This document shows positions 6,743-45,840 of a DNA stretch of 64,000 nt, piece after piece. Where the stretch lies: positions 434,001 through 498,000 of the forward strand of contig NZ_FRAY01000001.1 of NCBI RefSeq assembly GCF_900142475.1, written 5' to 3'. A program made the position numbers and the translations under genes. Numbering within the stretch: position 1 is the first letter of the stretch; every line of letters begins with the position of its first letter. The DNA comes from Fibrobacter sp. UWH4. Its GTDB lineage: Bacteria > Fibrobacterota > Fibrobacteria > Fibrobacterales > Fibrobacteraceae. The notes below the pieces were generated by a model. The model was not told the origin of the DNA, made no database searches, and worked only from the letters and a program-made list of their open reading frames with translations.

Positions 6743-6834
6743 TTTTTGTCTTCTGTGAGGCCGCCTTTTTGTCGTTTTAGGCGAAATAAATTACATTTGC
6801 TTTGAATTTATTATATCGGGTTACCGGAGGATTT

Positions 6835-7881
6835 ATGAAAAAGTTTCTTGTTGCGATGGGATTGGTGGCGTTTGCTGTTGTCGGGTGCGACGATAGTTCG
6901 TCGGCATCTGCAGGGCAAAACGATGAACCGGCTGTTGAATCGTCTTCTTCGAGTAGTGGCAAGGTCACTGATAAGGTTGGTGAGCCTGCCGAAGGGTCAT
7001 CTAGCAGTGACAAAACGAGTGTGTCCAGCAGCAGTTCTGCTGATGAGCTGTCGAGCTCTAGCCTGGTCGAGATATCAAGTTGTAGCGAGGGTGAAGGGAC
7101 GTCTAGTTCATCCGGACAAAAAATAGAGTCCAGTAGTAGTTCTGCAAGCGGGATAAATTGTTCGGCGCTCTTGGAGGGCGAAACGGGTTGGAGCTGGGAT
7201 GTGCCGAAGGAATGCCGCTTTAACCCTGATATTGACTACGGCTCCATGACCGATAGCCGTGATGGCAAGGTCTACAAGACTGTGGAAATTGGTGATTTGG
7301 TATGGATGGCTGAAAATCTGAACTACGCCGACAGTGTAACGACCACGAGTCTCAAGGGTAAATCCTGGTGCTACAACGACGTGGCCGCCAACTGCGACGT
7401 GGCCGGTCGCCTTTATACCTGGGCGGCGGCGATTGACTCGGTGGCATTGGCGTCCGATGAAGAGAACCCTTTGGATTGCGGTGACGGCAAGACCTGCGCC
7501 ATGCCAGACACTGTGTACGGGGTTTGTCCGCCGGACTGGCACTTGCCAACATATGCAGAGTGGAATGCCTTGTTCATGGCGGTGGGGGGGTATAGAACTG
7601 CGAGCTGGGCTCTCAAAACTCAGAGCGGCTGGATCAATAGAGACAGTCGCACAGAAGGTAACGGCGAGGACGAGTTCGGCTTTTCCGCGTTGCCTGCAGG
7701 CAGCTGGAGCGACGTTGGGTCTTACTACTGCGATGAGGGCCGCAACGCGCGTTTCTGGAGTGCGTCTGAGTATGGTGAAGACAACGCGTACTTTTTAGGC
7801 ATGAACAACGTCTTCTCCGATGCGAGTCTGTCCCCCACCTACAAGAGCCACGGGAATTCAGTTCGCTGCGTAAAGAACTAA
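6835..7881 (+). CDS. FISUMP-domain lipoprotein (copy 2)
   Basis: The 348-aa lipoprotein has signal peptide MKKFLVAMGLVAFAVVGC with the lipobox Cys at residue 18. A long Ser-rich linker (about 20-105) precedes the FISUMP domain (about 115-348: DGKVYKTVEIGDLVWMAENL, RLYTWAAAID, CPPDWHLPTYAEWNAL, GFSALPAGSW, terminal SVRCVKN). The segment NCSALLxGETxWSWDVPKEC is nearly identical to copy 1. The start is fixed by GGAGG 4 nt upstream of 6835. Function is unknown; surface display through the lipid anchor is likely. Confidence 0.9.
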   Translation: MKKFLVAMGLVAFAVVGCDDSSSASAGQNDEPAVESSSSSSGKVTDKVGEPAEGSSSSDKTSVSSSSSADELSSSSLVEISSCSEGEGTSSSSGQKIESSSSSASGINCSALLEGETGWSWDVPKECRFNPDIDYGSMTDSRDGKVYKTVEIGDLVWMAENLNYADSVTTTSLKGKSWCYNDVAANCDVAGRLYTWAAAIDSVALASDEENPLDCGDGKTCAMPDTVYGVCPPDWHLPTYAEWNALFMAVGGYRTASWALKTQSGWINRDSRTEGNGEDEFGFSALPAGSWSDVGSYYCDEGRNARFWSASEYGEDNAYFLGMNNVFSDASLSPTYKSHGNSVRCVKN

Positions 7882-27208: not shown

Positions 27209-28621
27209 ATGGTCGATGCAATACTGAATAGGTTCTATAGGCCGTCTCGATTCAAGAAAAACGGCGATGTGAAGGATGTGCTGGTTGTTGCGCTACCGAT
27301 GCTTCTGTCAATGTCGTTCGATACATTGATGACCTTTATCGATCGCTTGTTTCTTTCGAAGCTTGGTCCTGCCGAAATGAATGCGGCCCTCGGCGCGGGG
27401 GCGGTACAGCTGGCCCTCACGATGTTCTTTACGGGGATGATCAGTTACACGACCGCCATGGTGGCGCAACGGCTGGGGGGCAAACGGCGATGGGACTGCG
27501 CCCGAGCGTTTATGCAGGCGCTCTATGTTTCGCTGATGTGCGTGCCGCTCCTGTATTTGACGATTCCCCTAGGACACGTTGTTTTTGGTATGGAACATTT
27601 GCCGGCAGACCAGCTGCAGTATCAGAAAACCTATTTCAACATCTTGATGTTTGGTGGCGTCATCAACTTGGTGCGCAATGTGGCGCCTTGTTTCTTTAGC
27701 GGTATCGGTGAAACGAAAATCGTGATGAAGGCAGCCTTCGTGGGCATGCTCGTGAATGTAGCCTGCAATTTCGTGCTGATTTACGGTATGGGGCCAATTC
27801 CTGCTCTGGGCGTGGCGGGCGCTGCTTACGGGACACTTATCGGGAATTTAGTTTCGACCGTCATCCTGTTCGCTAAATTTTTCGGCAAGAGCTGTCATCG
27901 TCGTTTCCGCACGCGCTACGCATTTGCTTTCAGCTGGCCCTTGACGCAGGAACTTTTGAAAAAGGGAATTCCGTCGGGAGTCGAAATGTTCCTGAACATG
28001 TCGGCGTTCCAGCTGCTAATCCTGATGTTCCATGCGCTCGGTCCTGAGTCGGCGACAGCATCTTCGGTGATGTTCAACTGGGACATGGTGGCCTATGTTC
28101 CCCTGATGGGGCTTGAAGTTGCTTCTACAAGCCTTGTGGGGCGTTATGTGGGCGCGAAGGACGGGGCGGCAGCCTCCCGTTCCACTTATTCGGGTCTCAA
28201 GCTCGGCTGGGGCTATTCCTTGCTGATGGGCATTTTCTTTATATTCCTGCCGGGCATACTTACGGATATTTTCAAGCCCGATGTGACCGAGGCGTCAGCC
28301 GAAGCCATTGCAATCTTCGAATCGGCGCGTCCCATGAGTATCTTTATGTTGCGGATAGCGACCCTCTACATATTCGTAGAAGTCCTGCTGGTCATTTATG
28401 CGGGAGCTCTCCGCGGGGCGGGCGATACGCTATGGGTCATGTTTGCCTGTGCCATTATGAACTGGTGCGTGGCGGGTTCGTTGTACCTGGTAGCCTATGT
28501 GTTCGGTCTGCCTGCGCATCTCGCCTGGATTGCGGTCGTTGCGGTTTACAGCACGGCTCCGGTTCTTTTCTGGCTTCGCTGGAAAAACGGCAAGTGGCGC
28601 CGCCATATCCTGGATGTCTAG
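27209..28621 (+). CDS. MATE-family efflux transporter
   Basis: The 470-aa protein has about 12 membrane helices in two homologous halves. MATE motifs include MLLSMSFDTLMTFIDRLFLSKLG in the first helices, TTAMVAQRLGG, and the second-half counterpart GIPSGVEMFLN with AGALRGAGDT. MATE pumps export cationic drugs or metabolites with H+ or Na+. TATCTTTG (27193-27200) lies 8 nt before the ATG. Its TAG stop and the topB TAG stop share the palindrome CTAG (28618-28621). Confidence 0.93.
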   Translation: MVDAILNRFYRPSRFKKNGDVKDVLVVALPMLLSMSFDTLMTFIDRLFLSKLGPAEMNAALGAGAVQLALTMFFTGMISYTTAMVAQRLGGKRRWDCARAFMQALYVSLMCVPLLYLTIPLGHVVFGMEHLPADQLQYQKTYFNILMFGGVINLVRNVAPCFFSGIGETKIVMKAAFVGMLVNVACNFVLIYGMGPIPALGVAGAAYGTLIGNLVSTVILFAKFFGKSCHRRFRTRYAFAFSWPLTQELLKKGIPSGVEMFLNMSAFQLLILMFHALGPESATASSVMFNWDMVAYVPLMGLEVASTSLVGRYVGAKDGAAASRSTYSGLKLGWGYSLLMGIFFIFLPGILTDIFKPDVTEASAEAIAIFESARPMSIFMLRIATLYIFVEVLLVIYAGALRGAGDTLWVMFACAIMNWCVAGSLYLVAYVFGLPAHLAWIAVVAVYSTAPVLFWLRWKNGKWRRHILDV

Positions 28622-31506
28622 CCGTTAATGACTTCGACGGTTAACTTGTTGAAACCGATTTTGCCACCATCCCTTATTTCAAGAGCTGCGCGGAAGGTGG
28701 TGTCGTTTTTCTTGAACGGCTCCAGTACGGGGGTGCACTTGTTCTTGAGCAACCCTTCGACTTCTTCATCGCTGAATTTGCGCTGGTAGAATATCTGCGG
28801 AATACCGTAGCCGCATTGCGGGTTCATGCAGACGAAGGCGGCGTGCGTTTCGTTGCCTTGCGAAGTCGTTCCGCTGCGGAACCGTAGCTGGTCTCCACAG
28901 ACGGGGCAGGGGAGGTTCCGGTGCAGGAATTCGAAGATGGCGCGGCCCCTGTCGGCGCCTTCGCCCCACTTGAGGCGCGCGGTAAATACGGCGCCTTTCT
29001 TGCTCTTGAAATCCTGGATGAGAGGCGTTGCCCCGTTGGTGAAAAGTTCGCTTATTTCTGCGGCGGTCAACGTGTGTCCTGCGACTGTCTTGAACAGCGT
29101 GAAGTTGCAATCTCCCGCACCGTCATTTGTCGTTGCGGTCGTTCCCTCATTTGTTGTCCCGGTCGCATCCTCGTTGGTCGTCCCGGCCGTCCCCTCGTTT
29201 GTCATCCCGGCCGTTCCCTCATTTGTCATCCCGGCCGTAGTGCCGGGATCCTTAGTCGCAGTACAGAATATCGCGTTCTTGTTTTCTTCGAGAACGGCTC
29301 CGCAGAGCGGGCACCTGTATTCGGTTTTCTGTCCGTGGAACTTGCCGTCGCTTTCGAATTCGAATTGGATGTTGAAATCCTTGTCGACGGTGAGTTTTGC
29401 CGCGAATTCGGTTCCTTTCTTGCTCTTGAATCCGACGAGGGGGCCGACTGCTTTGTTTGTGAGCAGTTCCTTCATCTCGTGGTGGCTGAGCATGCGGCCC
29501 GCTACGGTGTGCCCGATCTTGAAGGTGCAGGCTTCGTTCTTGCAGGTATAACCCCAGGGGGCGATTTCCAGGGGCTGTCCGCACTTAGGGCAGCCAATGG
29601 CGTCGGTCACGGTTTCGCGTTCGAACTGGCAGCCGTATCGTGCGTGTAAATCGGCGAACAGCTGCTTCACGTATTCCACGATGCCGTAGCGGAATTCCAC
29701 CGGCGAAAGTTTGCCTTTTTCGACTTGCGAAAGCTGGTATTCCCATTCGCCCGTCATCTCGGGCGATTTTACCTTTTCGTCCATCAGCTCAATGACTTCG
29801 CGACCGCGGGCGGTGCTCACCAGGTAGTTCTTTTGCGCCTTGATAAATCCGCGTTTCTTGAGTGTCTCGATGATGCCCGCCTGTGTTGCCGGCGTTCCGA
29901 GCCCGCGGTCCTTCATGGCTTCGGCGAGTTCTTCGTTCTCAATCTGCTTTCCCGCGGTCTTCATCGCGGCAAGGAGCGTGGCTTCGGTGTAGTACTTGGG
30001 CTTGCTCTTCTTTTTCTTTTGCAGTTCGATGCTGTCGAACGGGGTGTGGTCGCCGACATTCCATTCGGGGAAACTTTCGACCTGGTTCGTGATTTCGTCG
30101 CTGTCGCCCTTGCCTTCGGCAGCGGCGTCCTTATTGTCGGTCGGTGAGCCTGTCGAACCGTTCTTTTTCTTGCCTTTCGTCTCTTCTTTCGTCAGCGCGC
30201 GGAAACCCAAGTCTTCGTTGCGCTTGAGCTTTAATCTGAATAAATCTTTCGTCTCTCGTCTTTCGTCTCTTGTCTGTAAAATCACCTCCATTTCGTTCCA
30301 GACATACGGTTTCAGCCAAGCCTGTACAAAGCGTTCCTTCGCGAGTTCGTAGATTTTCTGTTCCATTTCAGGGAGTCCGTTTGGAACTTCTCCTGTTGGG
30401 ATAATCGCGTAGTGGTCCGTGACTTTGCTCGAATTGATAAAGACGAAATTTTCTTCGGCGCTCCGCATCACGCCTTTCTGCTCGGGGCTCGCAAGCCTTT
30501 GTGCAAGTGCGTAGGCTTCCTGTTTCATATTGTCGGGCAGGTACTGCGAGTCAGTACGCGGGTAGGTCAAAAGTTTTTTTTCGTATAAATTCTGTGCGCA
30601 GTCAAGCACCTGCTGGGCGCTGTATTTGAACCGTTTGTTGCCTTCTTTCTGCAACTCCGTGAGGTCGAAAGGCTTCTGTGGAAACTGCTTCTTTTGCTGC
30701 GTATCGATTTTTGCAATCGCAATATCGGCAGGAGGACTGCACCGTGTCACCACGGCGTTCGCACCGGCCTCTTTCTCGAAAACAGCAACTTTATCTTCTG
30801 CGAGGTACTGTGCCTGGAATCCTTTCCAGGTTCCGACGACACTATAGTAATACAGTTCCTTGAACTGTTCCACGATGGCGTCGCGTTCCACGACCAGGTT
30901 CAGGGTCGGCGTCTGCACGCGTCCCACCGAAATCATTTTCCCGCGACCGGCCGTCAAGGTGTAGGCTCGCGTGGCGTTCAGCCCGACCATCCAGTCGGCT
31001 CGTTGTCTCAGACGGGCTGCGTAGCTCAGGTTCACGCGCTGCGTGGCATCTTCCAGATTTTTCCAGGCCTTGTCGAGGTCCTTTGCCACGTAGCTGTTGA
31101 CCCAGAGTCGCTTGATGGTCTTCTGCTTGAAGGTGGGGGTGTAGTCGAGGATCAGGTCGAAAATCAGGTTTCCTTCGCGTCCGGCATCCGCGCCGTTCAC
31201 GAGAACGTCCGCCTGCTCCATCATCTGTCGCACCACGTTGAGTTGTTTCTTGGTGCTTTCGATTTCCATTAGTCGGAATTTTTCGGGGAGCAGGGGCAGG
31301 TTCGAAAGTCGCCATCCTCCTTCAAAGCCGGGGTAGGCGTCCAGCGGGGCAAGTGTAATCAGGTGGCCCACGCACCAGGTAATGCAATGGTTCTTACCAA
31401 TCAGGCAACCGTCGCCCTGGGTGAATTTTTCACCTTCCAGGCGTTCGAGCATGGGGCGATAGTGCTGGTTTGCGACGGAGGGCTTTTCGGCGACAAGCAG
31501 AATCAC
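28618..31506 (-). CDS. topB: DNA topoisomerase III with repeat-derived insertions
   Basis: This type IA topoisomerase relaxes and decatenates DNA. The 962-aa protein has the Toprim start MILLVAEKPSVANQHY and ADAGREGNLIF, the core SVGRVQTPTLNLV and the active-site region KLLTYPRTDSQYLPD. Three C-terminal zinc-ribbon modules follow (CPKCG, CPLCG, CPVCG). The start is GTG (31506-31504), overlapping the upstream gene as GTGA. Three segments look like absorbed intergenic DNA: a heptad-encoded TRDERRETK, NGSTGSPTD, and 8-residue repeats (GTAGMTNE) between the third and fourth Cys of the second zinc ribbon. Confidence 0.95.
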   Translation of the reverse strand: MILLVAEKPSVANQHYRPMLERLEGEKFTQGDGCLIGKNHCITWCVGHLITLAPLDAYPGFEGGWRLSNLPLLPEKFRLMEIESTKKQLNVVRQMMEQADVLVNGADAGREGNLIFDLILDYTPTFKQKTIKRLWVNSYVAKDLDKAWKNLEDATQRVNLSYAARLRQRADWMVGLNATRAYTLTAGRGKMISVGRVQTPTLNLVVERDAIVEQFKELYYYSVVGTWKGFQAQYLAEDKVAVFEKEAGANAVVTRCSPPADIAIAKIDTQQKKQFPQKPFDLTELQKEGNKRFKYSAQQVLDCAQNLYEKKLLTYPRTDSQYLPDNMKQEAYALAQRLASPEQKGVMRSAEENFVFINSSKVTDHYAIIPTGEVPNGLPEMEQKIYELAKERFVQAWLKPYVWNEMEVILQTRDERRETKDLFRLKLKRNEDLGFRALTKEETKGKKKNGSTGSPTDNKDAAAEGKGDSDEITNQVESFPEWNVGDHTPFDSIELQKKKKSKPKYYTEATLLAAMKTAGKQIENEELAEAMKDRGLGTPATQAGIIETLKKRGFIKAQKNYLVSTARGREVIELMDEKVKSPEMTGEWEYQLSQVEKGKLSPVEFRYGIVEYVKQLFADLHARYGCQFERETVTDAIGCPKCGQPLEIAPWGYTCKNEACTFKIGHTVAGRMLSHHEMKELLTNKAVGPLVGFKSKKGTEFAAKLTVDKDFNIQFEFESDGKFHGQKTEYRCPLCGAVLEENKNAIFCTATKDPGTTAGMTNEGTAGMTNEGTAGTTNEDATGTTNEGTTATTNDGAGDCNFTLFKTVAGHTLTAAEISELFTNGATPLIQDFKSKKGAVFTARLKWGEGADRGRAIFEFLHRNLPCPVCGDQLRFRSGTTSQGNETHAAFVCMNPQCGYGIPQIFYQRKFSDEEVEGLLKNKCTPVLEPFKKNDTTFRAALEIRDGGKIGFNKLTVEVING
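29123..29250. repeat. 24-bp tandem repeats inside topB
   Basis: Units start at 29123, 29147, 29171, 29195 and 29219, each a variant of TCATTTGTCATCCCGGCCGT plus 4 nt. The last unit runs into CCGGCCGTAGTGCCGGGATCC, a REP-like hairpin. In frame they encode repeats of GTAGMTNE. Confidence 0.85.
30137..30195. repeat. Intergenic-type repeat plus heptad words inside topB
   Basis: GGTCGGTGAGCCTGTCGAAC (about 30139-30158) is a common intergenic repeat type in bacterial genomes; here it encodes GSTGSPTD. The heptad words CTTTCGT and CTCTTCT follow at 30174-30187. Confidence 0.6.
30246..30280. repeat. Heptad tract inside topB, unit CTTTCGT
   Basis: 7-mers CTTTCGT, CTCTCGT, CTTTCGT, CTCTTGT, CTGTAAA run in frame through topB, encoding TRDERRETK on the minus strand. 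It is the only heptad tract of this window inside a gene. Confidence 0.85.
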
Positions 31507-35074: not shown

Positions 35075-35395
35075 TTTCTGGCAAATTTAAATCTGAAATC
35101 CCCGGCATGGCCGGGGATTTTTGCACTTATGTCCGTTCCTCATCCAGTAGCCGTACGCCTGTATGTCCAGCAACAGTAACCCCGTTCGTCATGCAACAGT
35201 AATCCCATACGTCATCCTGCCCCAGTATGGGGCGGGATCCAGTGGCAGCATTCCTGCTTAAGGAATGAAAGATCTTCCCTTTACTTTTGTATACAGAAAA
35301 GGGCGGATTTGTTTTGCTTTTTGGGGTGCGAAAGTCTATTTTTTTATTTGGAAATACGGCGGATTGTTTCGTCGTTAAAATAAAAAGGATGGATT
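35075..35395. other. Intergenic region with CGTCAT repeats
   Basis: After the terminator, about 35130-35260 holds related pieces containing CAACAGTAA and CGTCAT. One REP-like hairpin (TGCCCC-AGTA-TGGGGCGGGAT) lies near 35218-35240. No gene is supported. Confidence 0.55.
35096..35122 (+). terminator. Rho-independent terminator after the fibro-slime gene
   Basis: AAATCCCCGGC pairs with GCCGGGGATTT around ATG, continuing into T2. Confidence 0.88.
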
Positions 35396-45690: not shown

Positions 45691-45840
45691 GGTTCGTCAT
45701 TCCGGAGCGAGTCGCAGTTTCCCGTAACGGAATCGCAGAATGTTCCGGTTCGTCATTCTGGAGTGAGTTCCTGTTTCCCGTAACGGAATCGCTGGATGCT
45801 CCGGTTCGTCATTCTGGAGCCGTTAGGCGACGGAATCCAG
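45691..45840. repeat. 56-bp tandem REP-like repeats downstream of recA
   Basis: GGTTCGTCATTC starts at 45691, 45747 and 45803, exactly 56 bp apart. Each contains GGAGCGAGT or a variant and, in the first two, CCCGTAACGGAATCGC; the third is shorter and ends GACGGAATCCAG. The family also occurs in part at 49594-49622. Confidence 0.85.

Follow-up and report, generated by a model that had tools for sequence, protein, structure and literature searches.

Intergenic-type repeats in the hypervariable loops of Fibrobacter topoisomerase III

Three repeat families within one topoisomerase frame

The locus described here raises the question of how short repeats of intergenic type come to be read in frame within a conserved enzyme. 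The window, by which we mean the whole 64,000-nucleotide stretch of DNA from the gut bacterium Fibrobacter sp. UWH4 that was analysed, contains a topB gene in which an initial annotation had noted three such repeats in frame, and all three are indeed present within a single unbroken ORF of 962 amino acids, each with relatives elsewhere in the genome (Table 1). The product is a DNA topoisomerase III (TopB), in that E. coli Topo III is closest to it both by fold (the nearest PDB structure by Foldseek, with a TM-score of 0.82-0.83 over the target) and by sequence (phmmer E 2.5e-78), with a type IA core.

Table 1. Features of topB, given as positions of the window
Feature	Coordinates	Strand	Remarks
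topB, DNA topoisomerase III, 962 aa	28618..31506	minus	Toprim, Topoisom_bac and three C-terminal Toprim_Crpt zinc-ribbon repeats (Pfam)
Loop A, residues 235-240	30787..30804	minus	Empty in the window's genome; aligns with E. coli TopB residues about 241-246
Loop B1, heptad tract (AGACGAR)n, residues 411-421, read QTRDERRETKD	30244..30276	minus	Beta-hairpin tip
Loop B2, GGTTCGACAGGCTCACCGACC repeat, residues 442-468, read GSTGSPTD	30139..30159	minus	pLDDT < 50
Loop C insert, residues 753-798, between Cys748 and Cys800 of zinc ribbon 2	29113..29250	minus	REP hairpin and tandem 24-bp units
TGTC-tagged REP hairpin at the end of the 24-bp array	29224..29252	plus	8-bp perfect stem, 6-nt loop, tail CCT

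The 24-bp array (29123-29238) comprises 4.8 copies with 81% matches by TRF, and with its terminal hairpin spans 29123-29250. This hairpin, TGTC-ATCCCGGC-CGTAGT-GCCGGGAT-CCT, is unique within the window at a chance expectation of 0.00, which is also the expectation for GGTCGGTGAGCCTGTCGAACC, the GGTTCGACAGGCTCACC-type repeat of loop B2, and the heptad tract (TRF core 30245-30275) gave 3 matches where 0.19 were expected. The 24-bp units lie between the third and fourth cysteines of the second zinc ribbon, as first described, but the interval from C748 to C800 is of 51 residues and not 45; many relatives have 2-9 residues there, with 'CPAC' or a short turn in place of the insert, and outgroups have 'CPAENC'. 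In the AlphaFold model the pLDDT is below 50 at residues 442-468 and 752-798, and the inserts of loops B2 and C are predicted to be disordered; B1 is placed at the tip of a hairpin whose flanking strands are residues 401-412 and 422-432.

Matching intergenic copies of these repeats, the absence of which would have counted against the initial annotation's reading, exist in the same genome, for instance at C5:188004 and C3:543323. The REP half-site GTCATCCCGGC has five sites in the genome, namely two in topB, one in the intergenic hairpin at C5:188004 and two at C6:122099, where the pair stands 24 bp apart next to a hairpin and so repeats the anatomy seen in topB. This pair is probably non-coding and upstream of its gene, because the gene model (gene calls are from our own hexamer model) puts it in an N-terminal ORF extension before a probable signal peptide. 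There are 19 genome sites for TGAGCCTGTCGAAC at no more than one mismatch, with none for the reversed pattern, and 23 for a 20-nt heptad pattern, including the exact intergenic copy on C3. When seven repeat consensuses were scored over 464 kb of the genome (400 kb plus the window) with a cut-off of at least 15, they matched at 21 intergenic and 15 coding places, five of the latter in topB, and nowhere in codon-shuffled genes.

Rfam identified only two tRNAs and one SRP RNA in the window and had no match at the repeats. Intergenic CGTC/TGTC-tagged REP hairpins also lie on the plus strand of the window at 35210, 43337, 45807 and 48881, and a 56-bp tandem repeat at 45691-45820 overlaps one of them.

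Variation and turnover of the loops across the genus

Comparison of TopB from about 60 Fibrobacter genomes, the alignment that the initial annotation had called for, revealed a conserved core and polymorphic inserts at four hypervariable loops, A (after residue 238), B1, B2 and C, with repeats of up to about 110 residues in loop A of relatives. At a score of at least 13, the seven consensuses matched 112 of 214 loops, a cut-off reached by 0.5% of loops after codon shuffling and by none of 1253 core segments; nearly half of the loops matched no consensus. The consensuses were picked after the translated loops had been viewed, a choice on which neither the 12-mer test that follows nor the pattern counts in the genomes (29-nt and 26-nt units, below) depend. 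Loop 12-mers were found in the intergenic DNA of their own genome at 3.3-10.8 times the level of codon shuffles, and core 12-mers at 1.3-1.7 times. Over 33 named loci the density of repeats was 0.60 per kb in topB, 0.25 in intergenic DNA and 0.024 in other coding DNA, and the contrast between topB and other coding DNA is understated, because three of the 11 matches classed as other coding are topB genes missed by the classifier. Full-length topB ORFs range over about 840-1180 amino acids, as against about 820-880 for open frames of the type IA paralogue, which serves as a natural control; the repeat loops account for length differences in annotated TopB, and we caution against reading them as domains.

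The inserts are absent from L225-L227, three species that represent a second genus of the family (g5), and from distant phyla, where conservation of the loops would have refuted the initial annotation's reading, and the insert-bearing state is therefore derived. An assembly or pseudogene artefact was considered and rejected, because no internal stop interrupts any topB match listed for the genus, and the same sites are filled in many independent assemblies. The earlier description of topB as an essential-type gene was too strong. Several near-complete genomes, among them G015 (99% complete), G073 (95%) and G014 (93%), show only the distant type IA paralogue, so a strict requirement for topB does not hold across the genus, and this suggests that it is dispensable or has been lost in some Fibrobacter lineages.

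Change at fixed sites is apparent even between close relatives. The nearest to the window's topB (G002/L148, 93% DNA identity) has TTCGACAGGCACACC in loop B1 where the window's genome has the heptad, and a REP in loop B2 where the window's genome has TTCGACAGGCTCACC, and its loop C is shorter by exactly 72 bp. In the relative L061, loop C holds one hairpin only, at the site of the window's hairpin; judged from these alleles, the 24-bp array appears to have begun as a single REP hairpin and to have grown by tandem expansion afterwards, the terminal hairpin of Table 1 being the presumed founder. Core identity reached at least 90% in 175 pairs; of these, 142, 151 and 125 were unalike in loops A, B1 and B2 respectively, and 48, 58 and 67 held two different recognised repeats there. 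On the core tree the minimum number of changes in repeat state is 25, 30, 23 and 7 for A, B1, B2 and C, and for the heptad state alone it is 9, 10 and 12 in A, B1 and B2. This polymorphism, with different repeats at the same site, supports the original proposal of multiple independent insertions into tolerant loops.

The heptad is read on the RDERRETKD strand in 41 of 41 loops, in all three frames, and never on the other strand, which is likewise stop-free and more hydrophobic, and REP1 is nearly always read as DPGSEAGMT. These strand counts include shared ancestry, although the heptad state alone still needs the numbers of changes just given, and the choice of heptad strand reflects filtering by strand.

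Source of the inserts and proposed means of copying

The host genome is the evident donor in the case of G046, whose loop A is a composite of a heptad followed by two REPs. At no more than 3 mismatches its 29-nt unit was counted 22 times in G046, once in G042 and not at all in G000, G002 and G077. The 26-nt unit was counted 31 times in G046, 26 times in G042 and 0-1 times in the latter three genomes, with no sites for either reversed pattern; 36 of the 53 copies examined lie between genes or at gene edges. This host-specific match strongly indicates that the loop repeats were copied from the host's own genome.

We therefore favour, with a probability of about 0.85, the explanation that permissive surface loops of TopB (A, B1, B2 and C) repeatedly acquire intergenic repeats of their host, which are then replaced, stacked or expanded. 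The donor pool would consist of the CGTC/TGTC-tagged REP hairpins, the AGACGAR heptad and the TTCGACAGGCTCACC-type elements of the host genome, and insertions would survive if the frame is kept and the hydrophilic strand is read. Inserted repeats may later be replaced, be joined into composites, or grow in tandem, as the 24-bp array would have grown from one REP hairpin. Since the enzyme core stays conserved, the loops would behave as near-neutral docking sites. Copying by template switching or by repair-linked host enzymes is the mechanism that we prefer, because structurally unrelated repeats share sites and the window's genome is without Y1/RAYT transposases.

Exchange of alleles may add to this turnover. 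That it should explain most of it, with old repeat loops shuffled by homologous recombination of topB between Fibrobacter species and few true insertions, seems to us rather unlikely: certain loop types do reappear in non-sister lineages, and flanks are about 0.01-0.04 more alike in pairs sharing a loop, but the flanks of the window's topB and that of G002 are mostly 90-99% identical right up to the swapped loops, the G046 units that abound in their own genome are nearly absent from G000, G002 and G077, and many state changes are required on the core tree.

It is distinctly unlikely that the loops are instead selected to vary, for example to tune activity or to evade a protein antagonist. Such selection would fit the higher repeat density of topB than of intergenic DNA, and also the position of loop A, which aligns by sequence near what we take to be the decatenation loop of the E. 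coli enzyme, the residue numbers of that loop being assumed. However, unrelated proteins hold the same repeats in linkers, loop A of the window's own TopB is empty, and the loop sequences have little in common except hydrophilicity.

Movement of the loop REPs by REP-associated Y1 tyrosine transposases, as proposed for GTAG (RAYT-mobilised) REPs, is very doubtful. The window's genome has no match to Y1_Tnp (PF01797), for which control genomes were positive. Of the suggestion that the repeats are mobile or templated, copying of the host's own repeats is strongly indicated, but the searches turned up no mobilising enzyme. Y1_Tnp genes occur in 18 of the 44 genus genomes searched (15 of 40 good genomes), but are absent from the insert-rich G042, G046, G001, G008 and G018; the same sites are used by the heptad and TTCGACAGG repeats, neither of which is a hairpin REP; and no dedicated transposase has been reported for CGTC REPs (PMC3733652). 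No less doubtful is a dedicated process that would copy arbitrary intergenic repeats into fixed protein loops by cassette-like exchange, with topB as a favoured target. Slippage alone, in which local tandem growth produced the loops and their likeness to intergenic repeats is low-complexity convergence, is scarcely credible. The tandem nature of both the heptad and the 24-bp array, and the growth of loop C by 24-bp steps, are in its favour, but codon-shuffled loops fail to match, and the non-tandem 26-29-nt units match many copies in their own genome only, some of them exactly, which contradicts slippage for G046.

Related repeat systems and other genes

As in the heptameric simple repeats of bacteria, the unit of the Fibrobacter tract is of 7 bp and passes through all three frames without a stop; unlike these, the tract lies in a protein loop where other species have REPs. 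Another parallel is the class of CGTC-tagged REPs, in-frame copies of which occur in genes for DNA repair and tRNA modification, uvrB and pseudouridine synthases among them, and for which it has been proposed that such copies are tolerated in flexible loops (Di Nocera et al. 2013, PMC3733652); Fibrobacter and topoisomerase are unmentioned in that report. The Fibrobacter REPs are like this class in their CGTC/TGTC tag and in a stem beginning AT. The topB hairpin starts with TGTC, which is among the unpaired end tags of the class (CGTC, TGTC or CCTC), and most intergenic hairpins with CGTC or TGTC under a search pattern that required xGTC. Its stem, ATCCCGGC/GCCGGGAT, has 8 bp, within the 8-9 bp of the class, many intergenic relatives having 5-6 contiguous pairs only by manual count, and its tail is CCT, where many intergenic copies end in CCA, the tail of the class. 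We call these repeats CGTC-like and stop short of assigning them to the class, because the loop of the topB hairpin is of 6 nt and not 4-5 nt, and those of intergenic copies vary widely (manual count). In contrast to the CGTC REPs, the Fibrobacter sites are also used by non-REP repeats, several in one gene, with replacement at the same site genus-wide.

Rickettsia palindromic elements (RPEs), of 105-146 bp, are similarly found in intergenic DNA and also, in frame, within conserved proteins (Ogata et al. 2000, reviewed in PMC2229807), and their in-frame insertion is tolerated by the enzyme, as tested for gmk (PMC2229807). In contrast to these elements of 100-150 bp, the Fibrobacter units are of about 20-40 bp, belong to several unrelated families and are replaced rapidly at fixed sites. 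In the literature searched on Fibrobacter repeats, topoisomerase REPs and in-frame insertions we found no prior report of the topB case. Intragenic CGTC REPs and RPEs in bacterial proteins are thus already known; what is new is the sharing of sites by unrelated repeat families, their replacement at the same site, and the repeat density and turnover within one gene, topB being denser than intergenic DNA and a hot spot. The alleles of about 60 genomes form a dense natural series that shows unrelated repeat families entering shared protein loops, and the movement of short non-coding repeats and the rise of new protein segments are therefore directly measurable.

The same repeats were also found in frame in other proteins, namely UvrB (twice, in G046), MnmE (G046), a transporter of LysE type (two species, one shared site), the C-terminal linker of SecA, the linker of a pseudouridine synthase and a TonB-receptor-like protein. 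All but the last of these come from loci L274, L282, L283 and L243 of G046, L240 of G042, and L031 and L042 of the window's genome. The presence of these repeats in linkers of UvrB, MnmE, the LysE-type transporter, SecA and the pseudouridine synthase has its parallel in other phyla, where CGTC/GTAG REPs are listed for genes of repair and tRNA modification.

In some relatives, arrays of RDDKKESVRDDKKESV, SRSPVRPGMTAES and VIARNEATKQSL are read in frame in two or three loops of a PLP-dependent aminotransferase with a conserved core, at L161, L164, L168 and L183, where it lies about 3-5 kb upstream of topB, and also at L167; it is a putative second hot-spot gene. At L049 in the window's genome (C7:72030) the heptad is read on its hydrophobic strand (SSLVSRLT) at the start of an apparent signal peptide, and here a repeat may have become part of an export signal. 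Within the window, a serine-rich putative lipoprotein (6802-7881) has a TTCGACAGG-type repeat (KVGEPAE) at 6975-6993 inside its polyserine linker.
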